Part shown: positions 1,974 through 9,818 of the stretch, piece after piece | Layout: each line of letters starts with the position of its first letter | How positions within the stretch are numbered: position 1 is the first letter of the stretch | Assembly (NCBI RefSeq): GCF_011751765.2 | Contig: NZ_CP061169.1 | Location: forward strand, 806,001-870,000 | DNA: 64,000 nucleotides | From: Paramicrobacterium chengjingii | GTDB lineage: Bacteria; Actinomycetota; Actinomycetes; Actinomycetales; Microbacteriaceae | Reading direction: 5' to 3' | Made by a program: the position numbers and the translations under genes | Notes under the pieces: generated by a model | The model's database searches: none | Told to the model about the DNA's origin: nothing | What the model saw: the letters and a program-made list of their open reading frames with translations, nothing else

Positions 1974-2744
1974 TCAGTCGTCAGTGCTCGCTCCCTGAAC
2001 GCGCGACAGGAACGCTTGCGTCTCGGCCTGCTGTGGGTCATCGAAGATCTGCTCGGGCGGGCCGGCCTCAACGATGCGGCACTGCGAGAGAAAGATGACG
2101 CGGTCGGCGACCCGGCGTGCGAAAGACATCTCGTGCGTGGCCATGACCATCGTGCTCCCCGCCTGCTTCAGCTCACCGACGAGGTCGAGCACTTCGCCGA
2201 CCAACTGAGGATCGAGTGCGCTCGTGATCTCGTCGAGCAGCAGAAGTTCGGGCTCCGTCGCGATGGCGCGCGCGATCGCGACACGCTGCTGCTGCCCTCC
2301 CGAGAGTCGGTCGGGGTACTCGCCAGCCTTCTCTTCGAGGCCGATGCGCCGCAGCAGTTCACGCGCACGTGATTCGGCCTCGGCCTTTCCAATGCCGAAG
2401 ACATTGCGGCTCGCCAACGTGATGTTGTGCAGAACAGAGAGGTGGGGAAAGAGGTTGTAGTGCTGAAAGACGACGCCGATGCGTGCGCGCACACGATCGG
2501 CGTTCACCCTCGGATCGGTGATGTCGTCGCCCTGCAGGAAGATCTGGCCGTCATCGACGCGCTCGAGAAGATTGATGGTCTTCAGCAGCGTTGACTTTCC
2601 TGATCCGCTCGCGCCGATCAAAGCAACTACTTCGTGCTCGGCGACCTCGATGTCGATTCCTTGCAGCACGGCGGTGTCGTCAAACCATTTCTGTACACCG
2701 GTGACGCGCAGCACAGGCTTGGGCGTGGCAGGTTGCTCGCTCAT
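1974..2744 (-). CDS. Polar amino acid ABC transporter ATP-binding protein
   Basis: A 256-aa ATPase of the GlnQ/HisP family that powers uptake of a polar amino acid. It has Walker [12 protein letters not shown], signature [14 protein letters not shown], Walker B LLLLDEITSALDP and the switch histidine in MVMATHEMSF. The start at MSEQPATPKP (ATG 2742-2744) follows AGGACAGGT and overlaps the permease stop by 4 bp, so it is the third gene of a binding-protein/permease/ATPase operon. The substrate cannot be read from the ATPase. Confidence 0.92.
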   Translation of the reverse strand: MSEQPATPKPVLRVTGVQKWFDDTAVLQGIDIEVAEHEVVALIGASGSGKSTLLKTINLLERVDDGQIFLQGDDITDPRVNADRVRARIGVVFQHYNLFPHLSVLHNITLASRNVFGIGKAEAESRARELLRRIGLEEKAGEYPDRLSGGQQQRVAIARAIATEPELLLLDEITSALDPQLVGEVLDLVGELKQAGSTMVMATHEMSFARRVADRVIFLSQCRIVEAGPPEQIFDDPQQAETQAFLSRVQGASTDD

Positions 2745-3625
2745 ACCTGTCCTCCCATCTGCTCGCGGCGTTGTGCGCGTGCTGTGTACCAGTCGGTCAG
2801 CCTGATCATCGGCCATGACAAGAGCACGAAGAGGATGCCCGCGACAACGTATGGCGTGAAGTTATAGATGCTCGCAACTTCGATCTGCGCGGCGCGGATC
2901 GCGTCGACAGCGCCGAGCACCGAGATCAGACCAACGTCTTTCTGCATCGAGACGAAGTCGTTCATGAGAGCAGGCGTCACCTTGCGCACAGCCTGGGGCA
3001 GAACGACGAGCCGCAGGGTCTTCGAATACCCGAGCCCCAGCGATCGCGCGGCCATGCGCTGCGACGGGTGAACTGCCTCGATTCCCGCGCGCAGAACTTC
3101 GGCAACGTACGACGAATACGTCAGCGTCAGAGCGACGGTTCCCCACACCTGCATGGGCAGGCGATCGGTGAACCCGAGAGCGGGAATGCCGAACCCGACG
3201 AGGTAGAGAACAAGCAGAAGAGGAATGCCTCGAAAGAAGTCGGTGTAGATCGCTGCGCCAAGGCGGATCGGCGCGAAGACAGCGCCACGAAGCGTTCGTG
3301 CAATGGCAAGAAGGGAGCCGAAGATTCCCACGAGAATGGCGGCGAAGAAGAGCACCTGAATGTTGAGCCAGAGACCGACGAGGATGCTGGGAAAGGAGGC
3401 GATTGCCGTCTCGACGTCGAAGAACGAACGGCGCACGTCGTCCCAGCCGGGACTGTTGACGAGAACAAACCACACGACCACAGCAAAGACGATGGTGCTC
3501 GCCACGCTAATGAGAAGCGAACGGACTGTCTGTCTGCGTCGATAGGATCGCCGCTCGCGCTCGACGCGGCTCGGCTCAAGCCGAGCTGGGCCCGAAGACG
3601 TACTGGTATCTGCGTCGTTTGTCAC
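2741..3625 (-). CDS. Polar amino acid ABC transporter permease
   Basis: A 294-aa HisM/GlnP-type permease of the His/Glu/Gln/Arg/opine family. A basic N-terminal tail of about 35 residues precedes the first membrane segment (LLISVASTIVFAVVVWFVLV). The conserved cytoplasmic loop appears as EVLRAGIEAVHPSQRMAARS followed by LGLGYSKTLRLVVLPQA, the ATPase docking motif. It starts at GTG 3623-3625, with AGGAG upstream, 17 bp after the binding-protein stop. Only one permease gene is present, so it probably acts as a homodimer. Confidence 0.92.
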   Translation of the reverse strand: MTNDADTSTSSGPARLEPSRVERERRSYRRRQTVRSLLISVASTIVFAVVVWFVLVNSPGWDDVRRSFFDVETAIASFPSILVGLWLNIQVLFFAAILVGIFGSLLAIARTLRGAVFAPIRLGAAIYTDFFRGIPLLLVLYLVGFGIPALGFTDRLPMQVWGTVALTLTYSSYVAEVLRAGIEAVHPSQRMAARSLGLGYSKTLRLVVLPQAVRKVTPALMNDFVSMQKDVGLISVLGAVDAIRAAQIEVASIYNFTPYVVAGILFVLLSWPMIRLTDWYTARAQRREQMGGQV

Positions 3626-3642: not shown

Positions 3643-4488
3643 CTATGACAGGACTGTGGCGCCGGCGTTGTCAGCGAGCCACTTCTGGGCGAGATCATCG
3701 AGAGTGCCGTCCTCACGGAGTGCGTCGACAGCATCGGACACCGGGCCGGTGAGGGACGAGTCGTTCTCAAGCAGGAGAGCGAGCTTGTCTCCGCCGGCGG
3801 AGCTCTCGAACTGCCCGACGAGTACGCCGTCGTCGAGAACAGCATTGGCGTTGTAGAACGCCGTCGGCAAGTCGGTGACGAGCGCATCGATGTTGCCCGA
3901 GATGAGCGCCTGAACGGTGTCTTCGTTGCTGTTGAAGATAGCGGGATCCGTGCCGATCGCTTCTTTCACCGCGGCGATCGATGTCGACCCGGCTGCCACG
4001 CCGACTTTCACGCCAGCGAGGTCAGCGAGCGATGTGGCCTCGGCTGCGGGGCTTCCCTTGACACTCACGACGCCCTGCGTTGTCTCGTAGTAGGGCGACG
4101 AGAAATCGACTGCCTTCTCACGATCGTCGTTTGCCGAGAACTGTTGGATGTTGATGTCGAAGTCCTTTGGGCCGGGCGCAATCACCGTATCGAACGGTGT
4201 GCGGATCCAGACGACATCCGATTCGGCAAATCCCAGCTCGTCAGCGACGGCATAGGCGACAGCCGCCTCGAAGCCTTCGCCCGACTCGGGGTCGTCGTTC
4301 TCAACCCAGGGTGAATAGGCCGGCTCGCCTGTTGCGATCGTGAACTTCCCCGGCGTCACGGTCTCCAGGCCGGATTCGCTGCCGTCCGCGGCATCCTGAG
4401 GTGTCGACGCGGAGCAGGCGGACAGTGCGATCATTGTCGCGGCCGCGCTGGCAATGGCAAGTGATCGCAGAACGAATCGAGTTTTCAC
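3643..4488 (-). CDS. Amino acid ABC transporter substrate-binding lipoprotein
   Basis: A 281-aa SBP_bac_3 family lipoprotein. The N-terminus is basic, then SLAIASAAATMIALSAC, a lipobox with the lipidated cysteine about 26 residues in. Typical family features follow: GFEAAVAYAVADELG near the start of lobe 1, then DDREKAVDFSSPYYETTQGV, the conserved R-x-x-x-V-x-F-S-x-P-Y block. I chose GTG 4486-4488 because AGAGGAA sits just upstream; a GTG 30 bp earlier is also possible. First gene of the three-gene transporter operon. Ligand is probably a polar or acidic amino acid (inference). Confidence 0.9.
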   Translation of the reverse strand: MKTRFVLRSLAIASAAATMIALSACSASTPQDAADGSESGLETVTPGKFTIATGEPAYSPWVENDDPESGEGFEAAVAYAVADELGFAESDVVWIRTPFDTVIAPGPKDFDINIQQFSANDDREKAVDFSSPYYETTQGVVSVKGSPAAEATSLADLAGVKVGVAAGSTSIAAVKEAIGTDPAIFNSNEDTVQALISGNIDALVTDLPTAFYNANAVLDDGVLVGQFESSAGGDKLALLLENDSSLTGPVSDAVDALREDGTLDDLAQKWLADNAGATVLS

Positions 4489-4593
4489 GGGGTTCCTCTT
4501 CAGAAGCTGGGCGCGCACAGGGAAACGGCGCCACTGAGTAAGAATATCGTCGTCTGTCCTCCCCGCGTGCAGGGATGACGAATTGTTGCTCTG

Positions 4594-5016
4594 TCAGTCG
4601 GCAAGGCGCCAGTCTGCAAAGTCGAAGCCGGGCGTCACGAGGCAGCTGACGAGCACATCGTCGTCGCCGGGAATCGTGCGCTGCCAGCATCCGGCGGGAA
4701 CGAGAAACTGCTGGCGCGCATTGTCAGTACCGGGGGAGGCGAGGAGTGCTGTTTCGCCGGTCTCGCGCGGTGCATCGCCCGTGCCCCCGAGCTCCAGTCG
4801 CAGGGCACCGGGCCCGTGCCACATCCAGACTTCGTCTGACGTGACAACGTGCCAGCGCGAGTGTTCTCCTGCGGGCAGCCAGAAATGGATGAGCGTCGCA
4901 GCCGGGCGATCTCCGGCGGGCGTCGCGAGTGCATCGGGTGCCGTGAAGGTGCGACGGTACCAACCGCCTTCGGGATGCTGTTCAAGGTTCAGTTCACGGA
5001 TGGCGTCGAAGGTCAT
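4594..5016 (-). CDS. DUF985 cupin protein
   Basis: A 140-aa single-domain cupin of the DUF985 (Cupin_5) family. The opening LEQHPEGGWYRRTF and the later SRWHVVTSDEVWMWHGPG carry the family signature, and LVSCLVTPGFDFADWRL is the usual C-terminal strand block. The ATG overlaps the stop of the long fusion gene upstream by 4 bp, so both are translated from one message. The enzymatic role of DUF985 proteins is not established. Its coupling to the fusion gene suggests a sugar- or nucleoside-like small molecule, but that is inference. Confidence 0.85.
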   Translation of the reverse strand: MTFDAIRELNLEQHPEGGWYRRTFTAPDALATPAGDRPAATLIHFWLPAGEHSRWHVVTSDEVWMWHGPGALRLELGGTGDAPRETGETALLASPGTDNARQQFLVPAGCWQRTIPGDDDVLVSCLVTPGFDFADWRLAD

Positions 5017-8000
5017 GCTGAAGGTTCCTCTCTGCGGTAGACGGTCTCGCCCGCGACGATCGTTCGCCTGCAGGTGCCCGCTCCCGCCTCGACGAGTTGG
5101 CTGAGAGCCTCGCGCGGCGTCGTGTCGGTGACGTCGAAGAACGCCAGGTCGGCGAGAGCGCCGACGGCAAGCTGGCCGACGCGCTGCGTTCCGGTGCCGA
5201 GCCCGAGAGCATGAGCGCCACCCAGTGTGACCGCGTGGAACAGTCGTTGGTGCAGATCGCTCTCTGCGTACCCCTGCTCGCGTGCGATTCTATGCAGCTG
5301 CGCGACGTCGGCGAGCGGATCGAGGCTCGGCGATGACGACAGCGAGTCGGTGCCGACCCCGATGAGGTTTCCTTCGCGCAGGTAGGCGGCGACCGGCGGT
5401 GCGTCGAGCCCGATCACCTCGTTCGAGCGTGGGCAGAGGGCAACAGATGTTCCACGTGCGCGCAGCAGGGAGCGATCGCGCCCCGTCATGTAGATGCCGT
5501 GGGCAATGTGGCAGTCGGGCCCGAGCACGCCGAGCTGGTCGACGAATTGCGTTGAGCTCACGCCCACACCGCGGCTGCGCAGCGCCCGGAAGCTCTCGGC
5601 GTTCAAGCCCACCCAGGCATCGTCGCTTTCGACGTTCTCGTTCTCGAAGTGCGCTTCGGCCAGGTGGATGTGCAGGCGCATTCCCCGGTTGCGCACGACG
5701 TCGGGGATGTCGAGAAGCGGCTGCACCTCGAGAGAATACGGCGCGTGCGGTGAGACACCGACGCCGGGGGTTGCCGGCATGCTGTCGAGATCGGCGATCG
5801 CGGCGTCACGGCCGTGCGCCCGCCAGTCGGCGTTGCTCCACCCCATGACTTCCCAATACGCAATGCCGTGCAGTCCGGCGTCGTGCAGCGCCGACACCGC
5901 TTCGCGATCGGTGACGACGTCGGCGAGAGCTGTCGTGCCTGAGGCAACAGCGAGCCGCGCACCCTCGGCGGCGGCAGCGCTCCAGTCATGGGCGGCGCCG
6001 TCGCGGTCATACACCGTGTCGAACGCCGCGGCCCAGTCGTCGAACCCGTCATAGCGCCGAGTGGCCACGTCTGCCATGCGCGTGTATTGCAGGTGCGTGT
6101 GCGCGTTGACGAGCCCCGGTGTGATCACGCCATCCCAGTGCTCTTCGGCAAAGTCGATTCCGGCATCACGCAGCGACTGTAAAACCCACTGGCGCTCGCC
6201 GACGTGCAAAATCCTGTCTCCGCGCACGGCGATGGCTCCGTCGCGAATTCGCGGTGCGGTGACGGGGATGACCAGAGGGGCGCTGTACACCGTGACCGTC
6301 GCGTGAGTCGGGTCGTCCGCCGACGTGCTCGGTGCGCTGACAGCATCGCGTGAATAGCGGCTGCGCTCGGATGCAATCGGTGCTGTCGTCGGGGCATCAG
6401 AGGTTGTGGATGCTGCGACACCATGCCGCGCGCCGAGTGCGCGCAACGCGATCTCGTCCTCGCGCTTCGGCGCGAGCTCGTGCAGGCCCGGAGCCAGTGC
6501 CCGTGAGTCCGTGAGCGCTCCCGCAGCAACGAGCTGCTCGACGGCAGCGAGCTGGGCGGCGAACGACAGGTCCATAATCTCAATGGGATTGCCGCCGGCT
6601 GCCGTGTAGTTCACGCCATGGCCGTGCGCAAGCACGAGTACTCGGTGGTCTCCGAGAACCAGATCGCTGATCTGGGGACCGTGATCGTTCCACAACGCGT
6701 GCGGTGCATCGAGCTCGCCATCTGTCCCGCCCGCGACGGCGAACACGGTTTGGCGTGCCGCTGTGCTCAGCAGCTGTTCGTCGATCGTGCCGCGCACACC
6801 GGATGCTGACACCACGATGTTCGCACGGCGCACGCCCTCGGCTGCCGGCAACACCTCGAATCCATCGACCTCCGCAGCGAGCGCGCGCACGGGGTCGATC
6901 TCTGTCACGATCACCGGGGCTCCGAGCGCGCGTGCATGGCGGCACACGCCTTCGCCGACAGGGCCATACCCGAGCACGAGCCAGGTAGCGGTGAGCGGAT
7001 CGCACTCGCTGACGCCCTCAGTGCGTGCTTCGTTAAGAAGGTCGACAATGGCGAAGACGCACGTCTGCCCCGTGCCATACCTGTTGTCGAACAACGTCTT
7101 CACGCGAGCGTCATTGACGGCAATCACGGGAACGGCCAACTTCCCGGCGTGATCCATGTCGCGGAGCGGGCGCACGCCGCTCGTCGTTTCTTCCGCAGCG
7201 CCGCGCAGGTGAGTGAGGGCTTCCGGATGCTCGTGCACGAGCCGAATGAGGTGGGCGCCGTCGTCGATCAGCAGTTGCGGGTGCCAGCGCACCAGATCCT
7301 GTGCCTGCTCGTCGTCTTCGTCGGCCGTCGCATCGGGCGAGCCCAGCACGACGATGCCTCGTGCGCGCAGCGCTGCCGCAGCTTCGGGGTCCACCTCGTT
7401 CGCGGGTGCGAACACGCGCACGTCAGCGCCTGCGCGAGCCAGTTCGATCGCCAGCACAGCGGTCTTGGGCTCGAGCACCAGAACGATGCCGATGCGCACC
7501 CCGCGCACGGCGCCGCTTCCCGCGAGGCGTGACGCCAGCGCGCGTGTGACCGGCATCGCTCCCGCCGCCCAATCGATGCGCGTCGAGCCGCGGTCGGCAA
7601 GAAAATTCTCGTGAACGGGCGTGCTGCTTCGAGGCGGTGCGTGAAGAACCTCGGTGTCGATGATGACAATCTCGCCCCGCGTGGCGTGGGCGGCACGCAG
7701 TCCGTGCGGAAGCATCCGATTGCTTGCTGTGACGTGCGCTGCGGCTCCCGATGCGCTGCCCAGCGCACCCGCATCGTCGACGATGATCGGCGAGTGCGAT
7801 GCCGTTTCGCCGTGCGCTGCCGACGCGTCATCGAGCCATGTGTGCACTGTCGCATGCTCGGCATCGGTCAGCGCTTCGAGAAGAACGAGCACGTCGCACT
7901 CGTCGACGGCGACGTTGTGGCCGCCCATGCCCTGCACGATCGTCCGCAGCGCCGCGACGGCATCCTGCTGGCCCAGAATCGCGAACCGTGTTCCGGCGAT

Positions 8001-8099
8001 CAGCCGGTTCGTCACTCGGTTAAATGCGGTCAGAGTCGAGGCAGCGTGCACCCGGTGCTCGGCTGAGGGCGAGGGGGCAGAATCGTCGGGGAGCGGCAC
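5013..8099 (-). CDS. Fusion protein: divergent S-adenosylhomocysteine hydrolase-like module plus amidohydrolase
   Basis: A 1028-aa protein with two enzyme modules in one uninterrupted frame. The first (to about residue 560) resembles adenosylhomocysteinase: EETTSGV, then NDARVKTLFDNRYGTGQT near 327-344 (matching the substrate Asn/Lys/Asp/Asn block), and the NAD motif GYGPVGEGVCRHARALGA near 374. Canonical SAHH histidines are replaced: the GHFD position reads GGTD, the GHPSF position reads GGNPI, and the HMTVETAVL helix reads VLEPKTAVL. After a Ser/Thr/Ala-rich linker (about 560-610) comes an ATZ/TRZ (MtaD-like) amidohydrolase with GLVNAHTHLQY near 665, HIHLAEAH near 807, CPRSN, and GTDSLSS near 915. 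I chose GTG 8097-8099 because the upstream extension reads antisense through the preceding gene. A combined adenosine/SAH turnover role is attractive but unproven. Confidence 0.85.
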   Translation of the reverse strand: MPLPDDSAPSPSAEHRVHAASTLTAFNRVTNRLIAGTRFAILGQQDAVAALRTIVQGMGGHNVAVDECDVLVLLEALTDAEHATVHTWLDDASAAHGETASHSPIIVDDAGALGSASGAAAHVTASNRMLPHGLRAAHATRGEIVIIDTEVLHAPPRSSTPVHENFLADRGSTRIDWAAGAMPVTRALASRLAGSGAVRGVRIGIVLVLEPKTAVLAIELARAGADVRVFAPANEVDPEAAAALRARGIVVLGSPDATADEDDEQAQDLVRWHPQLLIDDGAHLIRLVHEHPEALTHLRGAAEETTSGVRPLRDMDHAGKLAVPVIAVNDARVKTLFDNRYGTGQTCVFAIVDLLNEARTEGVSECDPLTATWLVLGYGPVGEGVCRHARALGAPVIVTEIDPVRALAAEVDGFEVLPAAEGVRRANIVVSASGVRGTIDEQLLSTAARQTVFAVAGGTDGELDAPHALWNDHGPQISDLVLGDHRVLVLAHGHGVNYTAAGGNPIEIMDLSFAAQLAAVEQLVAAGALTDSRALAPGLHELAPKREDEIALRALGARHGVAASTTSDAPTTAPIASERSRYSRDAVSAPSTSADDPTHATVTVYSAPLVIPVTAPRIRDGAIAVRGDRILHVGERQWVLQSLRDAGIDFAEEHWDGVITPGLVNAHTHLQYTRMADVATRRYDGFDDWAAAFDTVYDRDGAAHDWSAAAAEGARLAVASGTTALADVVTDREAVSALHDAGLHGIAYWEVMGWSNADWRAHGRDAAIADLDSMPATPGVGVSPHAPYSLEVQPLLDIPDVVRNRGMRLHIHLAEAHFENENVESDDAWVGLNAESFRALRSRGVGVSSTQFVDQLGVLGPDCHIAHGIYMTGRDRSLLRARGTSVALCPRSNEVIGLDAPPVAAYLREGNLIGVGTDSLSSSPSLDPLADVAQLHRIAREQGYAESDLHQRLFHAVTLGGAHALGLGTGTQRVGQLAVGALADLAFFDVTDTTPREALSQLVEAGAGTCRRTIVAGETVYRREEPSA

Positions 8100-8140: not shown

Positions 8141-9175
8141 TTACGCTGCAACGAATCCCGGCACATACTGTGCACCGCAAGCCTCCGCCAGCGTCGATCC
8201 GAAAAGCGCTGCCGGCGTGAACGCACCCGGCCGTCCCGACCCATCGAGCAGACGGCGCGCGATCTCGGCCGGCACCGTGCCGGTGAATGTGGAGGCATCG
8301 TCGACGCGAAGCCAGCCGTCGCGCACGGAGCCGTCTGACCATTCGACGTGCGCGTGGCCCCACGAGTACTCGCGAGGGCGGGGCCGGGCCGACACCGTTA
8401 CACGTGCAAGCAGTCGCTGGGCAACGGTGCGCAGCGGCGGAAGCGCCAGCAGTGCGGTTGCAAGCGGCAGCGCGAATCGAATGGGCCCCGTTGGCGCCAT
8501 GCTTGAAGCGGCGATCACCGTTGGCGCTTGGCTGTCGTGCCGGGCGGCCGCCACATCGCCGAGCGGCATGCTGGCTGTTGAGACGACTGTGCCGTCCGGA
8601 AGGGCGAGCCGCATGGGGTGGCTCGCCAGGGCGCTGCCGTGACGGTCACGGTAGGCCAGCCCGCTGACAAGTGACGTCGCAAGCGACTCGCCCACCTTTC
8701 CGGCCTCACTTTCCATCGACGGAATCATGTCGACGCGAACGCGCGCGGGTGTCGAGCGACCTTCGAGAAGCTTCACGAGGATGCTTTCAGATGCGGTGAC
8801 TCCGAATCCGGCGCCCGTCACCGCAGTCTGGCCCGCGGCGGCGAGCTCTGCGTCGCGATCGAGCAGAGTGTCGATCGCGCCCACGTCGTTGGCAATGTCG
8901 ATGTAGTGAACGCCCGTTGCGACGAGCGCGGCTGCCGTGTCTACGAACGGTGCGATGGTATTGATCACGATGGCCGGATGCTGTCGCCGAACCTCAGCGA
9001 CGATCGCGTCGATCGATGGGGCGACGACAGTTTTGGTGCCCTCAACCGCCGCTGCTGCCAGCGTTGCCGCGTTGCGACCGACGAGCACGGGCTCAATGCC
9101 TCGCTGTCGTAGCGCCGCTGTGATGTTCTGCCCGCTGCGGCCTGCGCCGCCCAGAACCCATACGTCATTGCTCAT
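8141..9175 (-). CDS. Saccharopine dehydrogenase-like NAD(P)-binding protein
   Basis: A 344-aa protein beginning MSNDVWVLGGAGRSGQNIT, a Rossmann G-x-G-x-x-G dinucleotide fold, followed by the family block AIVINTIAPFVDTAAAL and HYIDIANDVGA. This is the Sacchrp_dh_NADP / trans-acting enoyl reductase-like group, whose members act on varied substrates. The ATG at 9173-9175 has AGAAGGAG upstream. It is the first gene of the operon continuing into the SAHH-like fusion and the DUF985 cupin, and it is divergent from a TetR regulator across two palindromes. The substrate is unknown. Confidence 0.8.
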   Translation of the reverse strand: MSNDVWVLGGAGRSGQNITAALRQRGIEPVLVGRNAATLAAAAVEGTKTVVAPSIDAIVAEVRRQHPAIVINTIAPFVDTAAALVATGVHYIDIANDVGAIDTLLDRDAELAAAGQTAVTGAGFGVTASESILVKLLEGRSTPARVRVDMIPSMESEAGKVGESLATSLVSGLAYRDRHGSALASHPMRLALPDGTVVSTASMPLGDVAAARHDSQAPTVIAASSMAPTGPIRFALPLATALLALPPLRTVAQRLLARVTVSARPRPREYSWGHAHVEWSDGSVRDGWLRVDDASTFTGTVPAEIARRLLDGSGRPGAFTPAALFGSTLAEACGAQYVPGFVAA

Positions 9176-9190
9176 GGCTTGCTCCTTCTG

Positions 9191-9243
9191 TGATGACATC
9201 GCGTGTCATCACAGTAGCACCCTGATGGCATGCCGTGTCATCA
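9191..9243. promoter_or_regulatory. Paired TetR-type operators in the divergent promoter region
   Basis: Two 21-bp palindromes with 8-bp arms: 9191-9211 is TGATGACA-TCGCG-TGTCATCA (perfect) and 9223-9243 is TGATGGCA-TGCCG-TGTCATCA (one mismatch). Their centres are 32 bp apart, about three helical turns. They occupy the whole gap between the divergent dehydrogenase-like and tetR genes. The adjacent TetR protein is the obvious binder and probably represses both directions. Confidence 0.8.
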
Positions 9244-9257
9244 CGTAAGATGAGACC

Positions 9258-9818
9258 GTGAGCAGATGGGAGCCGGGTGCGCGCCGGAGGCTGGAGAAGG
9301 CGGCCTTCGAGCTCTTTGTCGAGCACGGATTCGCGGCGACGACAGTGCCTGAGATCACGGCGCGTGCCGGATTGAGCACGCGCACGTTCCATCGGTATTT
9401 CGCTGATAAGCGCGAGGTAGTCTTTGGCGGCGAAGATGTGCCAGCGGAGGCTGCCCAGGTATTGGCAGAGGCATCGCCGTCGGCCGAACCGCTTGACGTG
9501 ATCATGGGCGCGTTGCGTTCGTTCGCCGAGACGCGCTTTGAGGGCCGCCGCGACGAGCTGCGAATCCGGCGCGAGATCGTCAGCTCAGACCCGGGCTTGC
9601 GTGAACGCGACCTGCAGAAGCGGGAGACTGTGGGAAAGATCGTGCATGACGCGCTGTGCGCCCGCGGCGTGCCCGAAACTCGAGCAGCTCTGCTGTCTGA
9701 GACCTGCGTCACGCTGCTCTACGTCGCGGTGCAGGAGTGGCTCGCCCGCGATGACGAAACGCCCCTCGTCGATATCATCGCCGACGCGCTCGACACCCTG
9801 CGTTCAGCGCTGGCGTAA
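9258..9818 (+). CDS. TetR/AcrR family transcriptional regulator
   Basis: A 186-aa regulator with the canonical N-terminal helix-turn-helix: AAFELFVEHGFAATTVPEIT then ARAGLSTRTFHRYFADKREV. The ligand-binding half is poorly conserved, as usual. The start is GTG 9258-9260; there is no clear ribosome site, and the leader is very short after the second operator. Divergent from the dehydrogenase/fusion/cupin operon and most likely its repressor. The effector could be a substrate of that operon. Confidence 0.88.
   Translation: MSRWEPGARRRLEKAAFELFVEHGFAATTVPEITARAGLSTRTFHRYFADKREVVFGGEDVPAEAAQVLAEASPSAEPLDVIMGALRSFAETRFEGRRDELRIRREIVSSDPGLRERDLQKRETVGKIVHDALCARGVPETRAALLSETCVTLLYVAVQEWLARDDETPLVDIIADALDTLRSALA

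Follow-up and report, generated by a model that had tools for sequence, protein, structure and literature searches.

What does a protein do that joins a divergent S-adenosylhomocysteine hydrolase (SAHH) to an amidohydrolase in one chain? The question is raised by a gene in a stretch of 64,000 nucleotides from Paramicrobacterium chengjingii (contig NZ_CP061169.1, positions 806,001 to 870,000; hereafter the window), for which an initial annotation, made from the sequence alone and naming no strand, had proposed a single fusion frame of 1028 amino acids. The frame lies on the minus strand and contains no internal stop. Pfam matches to AdoHcyase_NAD (6e-21), AdoHcyase (2e-20) and Amidohydro_1 (1e-32), together with 301 bits against a cut-off of 275 for the NCBIfam model NF004005 (adenosylhomocysteinase), uphold the kinship with SAHH that a domain search might have refuted. 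The linker between the halves, where a stop or frameshift would have pointed to two genes, is free of both, and because four other proteins (P0003–P0006; 90%, 80%, 80% and 67% identity; three named Paramicrobacterium, one Microbacterium sp.) carry the same fusion in an open frame, it is very unlikely that the linker was missequenced, and an artefact of frame or sequencing was ruled out. The interest of the locus rests on the family to which its SAHH-like module, here termed SAHH-B, belongs: widespread and annotated as SAHH, this family has uniformly lost the catalytic residues and fully kept the redox residues, and it is tied to a deaminase and an importer.

The active site was assessed in an alignment (A2) of 39 of 53 proteins gathered by words shared with the window protein and not by motif; the identical P0002, six proteins with two SAHH modules in tandem, two frame-shifted and three chimaeric sequences, P0037 and P0041 were left out. 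According to Kusakabe et al. (PMC4647836), His55 of SAHH serves as base for the water, whereas Asp131, His301 and Lys186 are assigned to C4', the intermediate and the 3'-OH, respectively. None of the 39 SAHH-B modules has His55 (replaced by Val in 35 and Ile in 4), Asp131 (His in 37, Arg and Gly in one each) or His301 (always Gly), and His353 is Asn throughout, so that the residues that mark a catalytic SAHH are missing. The equivalents of Glu156, Thr157, Asn181, Lys186, Asp190 and Asn191, the glycines of the loop that binds nicotinamide adenine dinucleotide (NAD), and Glu and Lys of the nucleobase motif HxExK were found in all 39. The same pattern was seen in 79 modules from a set of genomic loci (His55, Asp131 and His301 again absent from all), which is the less fair count: these loci were selected by motif, EPKTA and KxxFDN were additionally required, so that E57, K59, K186, D190 and N191 are conserved by selection and position 55 partly so, and loci L073 and L076 dropped out. 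SAHH-B modules that adjoin or are joined to a second SAHH-type protein (SAHH-A) have Ser, Thr or Ala at the Asp131 position, and Met replaces His301 in genome G426.

By fold and by its Pfam and NCBIfam matches over cut-off, SAHH-B is related to the S-adenosylhomocysteine hydrolases. All motif changes listed in the initial annotation, including the loss of catalytic histidines, are present. The C-terminal Lys/Tyr tail is absent as stated there, but this is not peculiar to the protein, since the closest structures to the module are the archaeal-type SAHHs 3x2e, 7r3a and 7r37, whose C-terminus is described as shortened in PMC10978960. Judged from its residues, SAHH-B keeps the predicted base-reading and C3'-oxidizing positions and is without those handling C4' and C5'. 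His283 may act as a stand-in base at the Asp131 position, which is occupied by Ser, Thr, Ala, Gly or Arg in some members.

The metal site of the amidohydrolase half (HxH, H, H and D) and its catalytic Glu are complete in 21 of 21 fusions in A2 and 16 of 16 in alignment A3, as had been claimed for the window protein. Its fold groups with deaminases of 5'-modified adenosines, acting on 5'-methylthioadenosine (MTA), S-adenosylhomocysteine (SAH) or aminofutalosine or belonging to DadD; the best NCBIfam deaminase model, 5'-deoxyadenosine deaminase, scored far below its cut-off (101.7 versus 522). Three metagenome proteins (P0028, P0029, P0030) couple the deaminase to a C-terminus resembling phosphoribosyl pyrophosphate synthetase; having one common junction and two different tails, they are probably assembly chimaeras.

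Both searches suggested in the initial annotation, for the same fusion and for its halves as neighbouring genes, were productive. The locus set comprises the best 80 of 563 loci found by the patterns [LM][VI]LEPKTA[VA] and [IV]E[IV]MDLSF. Both motifs could be scored in 78 named loci (all but L073 and L076), with a fusion in 3 and separate adjacent genes in 75. When the start nearest the upstream stop is chosen, a choice that favours short gaps, 49 of these 75 pairs overlap by four bases (−4). Conserved pairs, accompanied by an amino-acid-type importer and often a DUF985 cupin, occur in Microbacteriaceae, Demequina, Actinomyces, Bifidobacteriaceae and a Clostridiales metagenome-assembled genome (MAG), and 25 of the 27 Microbacteriaceae genomes having either half contain both (150 genomes searched; hand tally). 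Fused forms are known from Paramicrobacterium, part of Leucobacter, Rarobacter, metagenome proteins without a name and a MAG of Clostridiales Family XIII. In a maximum-likelihood tree of 63 hand-chosen rows, the SAHH-B modules group together as a single clade (51 rows, support 100/99). Because the fused modules are scattered over at least four places in this tree, fusion probably happened repeatedly, as expected of a coupled pair; a unique event was ruled out by this scatter and by the existence of several fused forms. The fusion on its own is an ordinary rearrangement of a coupled pair, minor and repeated, and is not what matters most here.

In the window the fusion gene is followed in the same direction by genes for the cupin, a binding lipoprotein, a permease and an ATPase (Table 1). 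The last three, a substrate-binding protein (SBP), HEQRo permease and ATPase side by side, constitute a polar amino-acid ATP-binding cassette (ABC) importer, in which the permease alone passes a curated cut-off. Of the 77 loci with at least 4 kb of downstream sequence, 73 carry all three transporter genes there, on the same strand and no more than 6 kb away; the exceptions are two Frondihabitans loci with transporter genes upstream on the other strand, Rarobacter with none, and one locus with the ATPase only. The window genes at 8141-9199, 1578-1931 and 221-1774 around the operon each found a match in a single one of the 80 loci. Genes for an energy-coupling factor (ECF) transporter separate SAHH-B from the deaminase in genome G045; at this place G116 has a T-component gene that barely differs from its G045 counterpart, and G069 has a sugar-type ABC SBP and permease. 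In G426, a distant actinobacterium (locus L168), the order is SBP, permease, ATPase, SAHH-A, SAHH-B, deaminase. Since the gene pair persists with an importer while the importer type changes, this arrangement suggests that substrate uptake is part of the function. In the binding lipoprotein Arg133 is kept in 12 of 12 aligned SBPs and Asp216 in 10 of 12, both of which we take to be amino-acid anchors, and Gln125-Gln126 is invariant.

Table 1. Features of the fusion gene and its operon, with positions in the window and residue numbers of the fusion protein.
Feature	Position	Strand	Basis
Whole fusion gene, 1028 aa, GTG start	5013..8099	minus	Open frame read from window 8099 down to 5013; homologues
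N-terminal extension, residues 7-160, probable relic of an SAHH NAD-binding domain	7620..8081	minus	Predicted model, hhalign, L036_4, Foldseek/VIA
SAHH-B module, residues 164-561 (about)	6417..7610	minus	
V208-L-E-P-K212, HxExK nucleobase motif with Val for His	7464..7478	minus	Alignments; motif meaning from PMC10978960
His283 at catalytic Asp131 position	7251..7253	minus	Alignments
K334..D338-N339, equivalent to SAHH Lys186, Asp190, Asn191; 3'-oxidation site kept	7083..7100	minus	Alignments
GYGPVGEG dinucleotide loop	6948..6971	minus	Sequence motif
Gly458 at His301 position	6726..6728	minus	Alignments
Asn504 at His353 position	6588..6590	minus	Alignments
Ser/Thr/Ala linker, residues 562-597	6309..6416	minus	Predicted disordered, pLDDT <50
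Deaminase half, residues 598-1028 (about); metal ligands H667, H669, H812, H867, D918; E815	5016..6308	minus	
Cupin_5 (DUF985) gene, ATGA overlap with fusion stop	4594..5016	minus	Cupin match in 64/80 loci
Amino-acid-type ABC binding lipoprotein	3643..4518	minus	Placed by similarity; no NCBIfam model over cut-off
Amino-acid ABC permease (HEQRo)	2741..3625	minus	TIGR01726 over cut-off
Amino-acid-type ABC ATPase	1974..2816	minus	Placed by similarity

Near the operon, a match to the NiCo riboswitch (9094-9196, minus strand; 24.1 bits against a gathering score of 37) falls inside the 5' end of gene 8141-9199 and is probably due to chance. A TetR-type regulator (9258-9818, plus strand; best model MftR, far below cut-off) is divergent from this upstream gene. 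In another actinobacterial family, a 420-amino-acid SAHH gene directly adjoins ECF S-, T- and A-like genes named by eye (L174:7657-12220, minus strand), an independent link between an SAHH and an importer.

From the domains, motifs, operon and conservation seen in the sequences we infer substrate identity, step order and direction as follows. Our preferred reading, to which we give slightly less than an even chance, is importer-coupled salvage of a 5'-thioether adenosine such as SAH by deamination and subsequent NAD-dependent cleavage. The amino-acid ABC transporter would import an extracellular, amino-acid-bearing 5'-thioether adenosine, most likely SAH or a close relative; the C-terminal half would strip the 6-amino group, turning adenine into hypoxanthine and yielding S-inosylhomocysteine (SIH) or its like; SAHH-B would bind this hypoxanthine nucleoside via its Glu/Lys pair and oxidize the 3'-OH with bound NAD, using Lys334, Asp338 and Asn339; and the activated sugar would release the 5'-sulfur compound, giving a free sulfur amino acid and a purine nucleoside. 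The coupled handling of an adenosine-like nucleoside proposed in the initial annotation is supported as a reading, whereas its order, 3'-oxidation before deamination, is not. Homologues with HxExK favour SIH, and the motif Lys can contact inosine O6, according to Koeppl et al. (PMC10978960). Because the ExK motif is present in 39 of 39 modules, the substrate of the SAHH-like half is probably already deaminated; if this half reads hypoxanthine, the other should make it from adenine, and deamination first is the simpler order.

On evidence of context, the SBP anchors, together with the gene neighbourhood in genome G093, suggest that the nutrient is a 5'-thioether adenosine bearing an amino-acid moiety, and SAH in the first place. 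This genome, in which the search found no SAHH-B match, has a deaminase of the same family (55% to that of G116) beside MetI- and MetQ-like genes that exceed the Pfam cut-offs. Also nearby (L043:64-12309) are an adenosine deaminase, an ABC ATPase frame (identified by eye), a sugar-type SBP and permease, and two monooxygenases of the NtaA/DmoA family, which use flavin mononucleotide; a monooxygenase of the MsnO8 family is encoded on the opposite strand. As a whole the region resembles a sulfur-nucleoside catabolic cluster.

The P. chengjingii genome has a separate canonical SAHH copy with HMTVQ and the usual GHPSF. In a set of 18 genomes, SAHH-B was the only AdoHcyase-family match in 9, and 8 of these 9 have LuxS and an MTA/SAH nucleosidase over cut-off. 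None of 14 Leucobacter/Canibacter genomes has another AdoHcyase match, 12 have LuxS, and the nucleosidase model was over cut-off in none, with weak matches in 13. Together these are 22 SAHH-B-only genomes (9 + 14, one shared), and with LuxS in 20 of them a role of the module as housekeeping SAH route is mostly rejected. Across the 31 genomes beyond the window's own (the 18 plus 13 further Leucobacter/Canibacter), LuxS occurs in 20 and a canonical full-length AdoHcyase in 8, which fits salvage and not housekeeping. Absence of a canonical SAHH is not rare: any AdoHcyase match was obtained in at least 128 of 150 Microbacteriaceae genomes. Two genomes, G165 (Leucobacter cx-328) and G171 (Canibacter), have SAHH-B without a canonical SAHH, LuxS or an MTA/SAH nucleosidase over cut-off; they are candidates for the module as only SAH route or for assembly gaps.

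The N-terminal extension of the fusion protein is the probable relic of the NAD domain of SAHH-A, a partner that is still whole beside SAHH-B elsewhere. Helix-strand order in the first 160 residues of the predicted model, judged by eye, tracks the SAHH NAD domain. With hhalign, a profile of 32 extensions aligned over 47 columns with the beginning of the SAHH-A NAD domain (P 8e-5, probability 61%) and only weakly with that of SAHH-B (P 0.002, 14%). An intermediate is provided by a free-standing 230-amino-acid gene in G116 (L036_4) that overlaps the SAHH-B start. It matches the extension profile over 53 columns (P 2.7e-11), against which two unrelated control profiles gave 0.54 and 0.71, and it also matches the NAD domains of SAHH-A (1.7e-6, 132 columns) and SAHH-B (3.7e-8, 67 columns). 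Foldseek/VIA identified a Rossmann fold, by which alone SAHH and 2-hydroxyacid dehydrogenases are inseparable. Genomes G426 and G069 carry complete SAHH-A and SAHH-B genes side by side, and six database proteins, including one named Acidimicrobiales, combine the two in a single chain. Where both copies exist, SAHH-A retains His55 (8/9), His301 (9/9) and His353 (9/9), with Glu at Asp131 in 9/9 and Gln at Glu156 in 3/9. A search of 396 genomes of the phylum with P0023 matched at least 168 at 1e-80, many over one half only; among seven regions examined, one had the adjacent pair (G426), SAHH-A alone was seen in G436, and the others held other SAHH types or genes not resolved by the gene caller. 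A likely series leads from SAHH-A beside SAHH-B to SAHH-A cut to its NAD domain, then to its joining with SAHH-B, and finally to the joining of SAHH-B with the deaminase.

Further SAHH-like proteins were met in these searches. Three of about 395 amino acids from Microbacteriaceae (L031, L032, L033) form a third group, unlike the canonical enzyme and SAHH-B, with a HLDPK/HLEPK motif and changes in both the substrate block (in L031, INDSPLKAIGENRHAVGQS) and the C-terminal hinge (in L031, REPRGNSLESMDLGF). Two adjoining SAHH-type genes of 484 and 391 amino acids, the latter with an HVTTE-type motif, lie at L171:8311-11025 (minus strand).

Several observations weigh against SAH salvage as outlined. 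SAHH-B is without His55, Asp131 and His301, all three of which act in SAHH catalysis (PMC4647836), and their counterparts are essential even in AgmF, which does not use SAH (PMC8599513). SAHH-A, which mostly keeps His55, His301 and His353, has apparently been lost elsewhere, which seems odd for plain SIH hydrolysis. LuxS in most SAHH-B-only genomes makes the module something other than the housekeeping SAH route there. Among the NCBIfam deaminase models shown none reaches its cut-off on the window protein, guanine deaminases and triazine hydrolases score nearly equally in the fold comparison, and no known riboswitch was found at gathering score. The G093 neighbourhood is a single locus, its MetI/MetQ-like genes stay under the NCBIfam cut-offs, and a sugar-type SBP and permease are also there.

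The invariance of the 3'-oxidation residues against the complete loss of His55, Asp131 and His301 would also suit an SAHH-B with a changed reaction, oxidizing the 3'-OH of a hypoxanthine nucleoside without 5'-elimination and hydration. The 3'-keto intermediate might then lose its base, as in an oxidative nucleosidase, or a keto or unsaturated nucleoside might be released, perhaps to the cupin. Free base is a side product of SAHH (PMC10978960), a cupin gene accompanies 64 of 80 loci, and SAHH-A seems lost where SAHH-B stayed; the cupin is, however, connected to a keto sugar only by conjecture, its nearest solved structures all being unnamed proteins. Overall this rival appears unlikely, at roughly one chance in four. 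We know of no relatives that run such a reaction. Somewhat less probable still is that the same two steps serve an imported substrate other than SAH, such as MTA, 5'-deoxyadenosine, aminofutalosine, a nucleoside antibiotic or a further 5'-modified adenosine. Several compounds of this kind are substrates within the deaminase fold group, the best-scoring NCBIfam deaminase model, though far below cut-off, is named for one of them, and in some genomes an ECF or sugar-type importer stands in for the amino-acid one, but the amino-acid SBP retains its presumed anchors and G093 has MetI/MetQ-like neighbours. Animals possess regulatory paralogues of the AHCYL type, and with several catalytic residues lost SAHH-B could likewise be a catalytically dead partner or regulator of the deaminase that binds NAD and nucleoside; this is improbable, as full invariance of the Lys186, Asp190, Asn191, Glu156, Thr157 and Asn181 equivalents and of the NAD-loop glycines would be unusual for a dead enzyme. 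Falling somewhat short of an even chance is the broader proposition that in SAHH-B the SAHH fold has given rise to a new NAD-dependent enzyme, which would oxidize a deaminated 5'-modified nucleoside at C3' and resolve the keto intermediate without the His55/Asp131/His301 set (by another leaving group, base loss or keto release) within an importer–deaminase–SAHH-B–cupin pathway. No description of such a salvage pathway was found in the literature searched.

The naming of these proteins has consequences, since the window protein passes NF004005, most named relatives are called adenosylhomocysteinase, and such names enter metabolic models. In Bifidobacterium longum BB-46 an adenosylhomocysteinase gene, which may be SAHH-B, was proposed as the direct step from SAH to homocysteine and carried no flux in simulations (PMC8660834). 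In the four Bifidobacteriaceae genomes searched, SAHH-B, which is without the known catalytic residues, was the sole AdoHcyase-family match. Should the module serve to salvage SAH-like nucleosides from outside, many actinobacteria would share this nutrient route; should SAHH-B run a different reaction, 3'-oxidation chemistry would have found a new use.

Among known systems, SAHH-B shares fold, NAD loop, 3'-oxidation site and the NF004005 name with canonical bacterial adenosylhomocysteinases, but has ExK for TxQ, no histidines at positions 55, 301 and 353, and a shorter module. AgmF of angustmycin A biosynthesis is likewise an SAHH relative acting on a nucleoside other than SAH, with tightly bound NAD; Ala changes at its His56, Asp129, Lys184, Asp188 and His299 each abolished activity, and of these five residues SAHH-B has equivalents of Lys184 and Asp188 only, which sets it apart from AgmF-type dehydratases (PMC8599513). 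Closest is the pathway of DadD and SIH hydrolase (SIHH), described for Methanocaldococcus jannaschii and, with TM0936 and TmSAHH, for Thermotoga maritima in PMC10978960. There as in our proposal SAH is deaminated to SIH, which an NAD-dependent ExK-type SAHH then cleaves, and each half of the fusion closely resembles enzymes of this kind in fold; of the residues that define the HxExK subgroup, SAHH-B has Glu and Lys in 39/39 modules, but never the His. Unlike DadD and SIHH, the two halves share one chain or one operon here, have a link to an importer and occur mostly in genomes with another SAH route, and the SAHH-like part has none of His55, Asp131, His301 and His353. There is a fair chance that SAHH-B catalyzes a new reaction as opposed to the known DadD plus SIHH scheme: what is new relative to that scheme is the fusion, the coupling to import and a uniformly altered active site, and hence possibly a different reaction.

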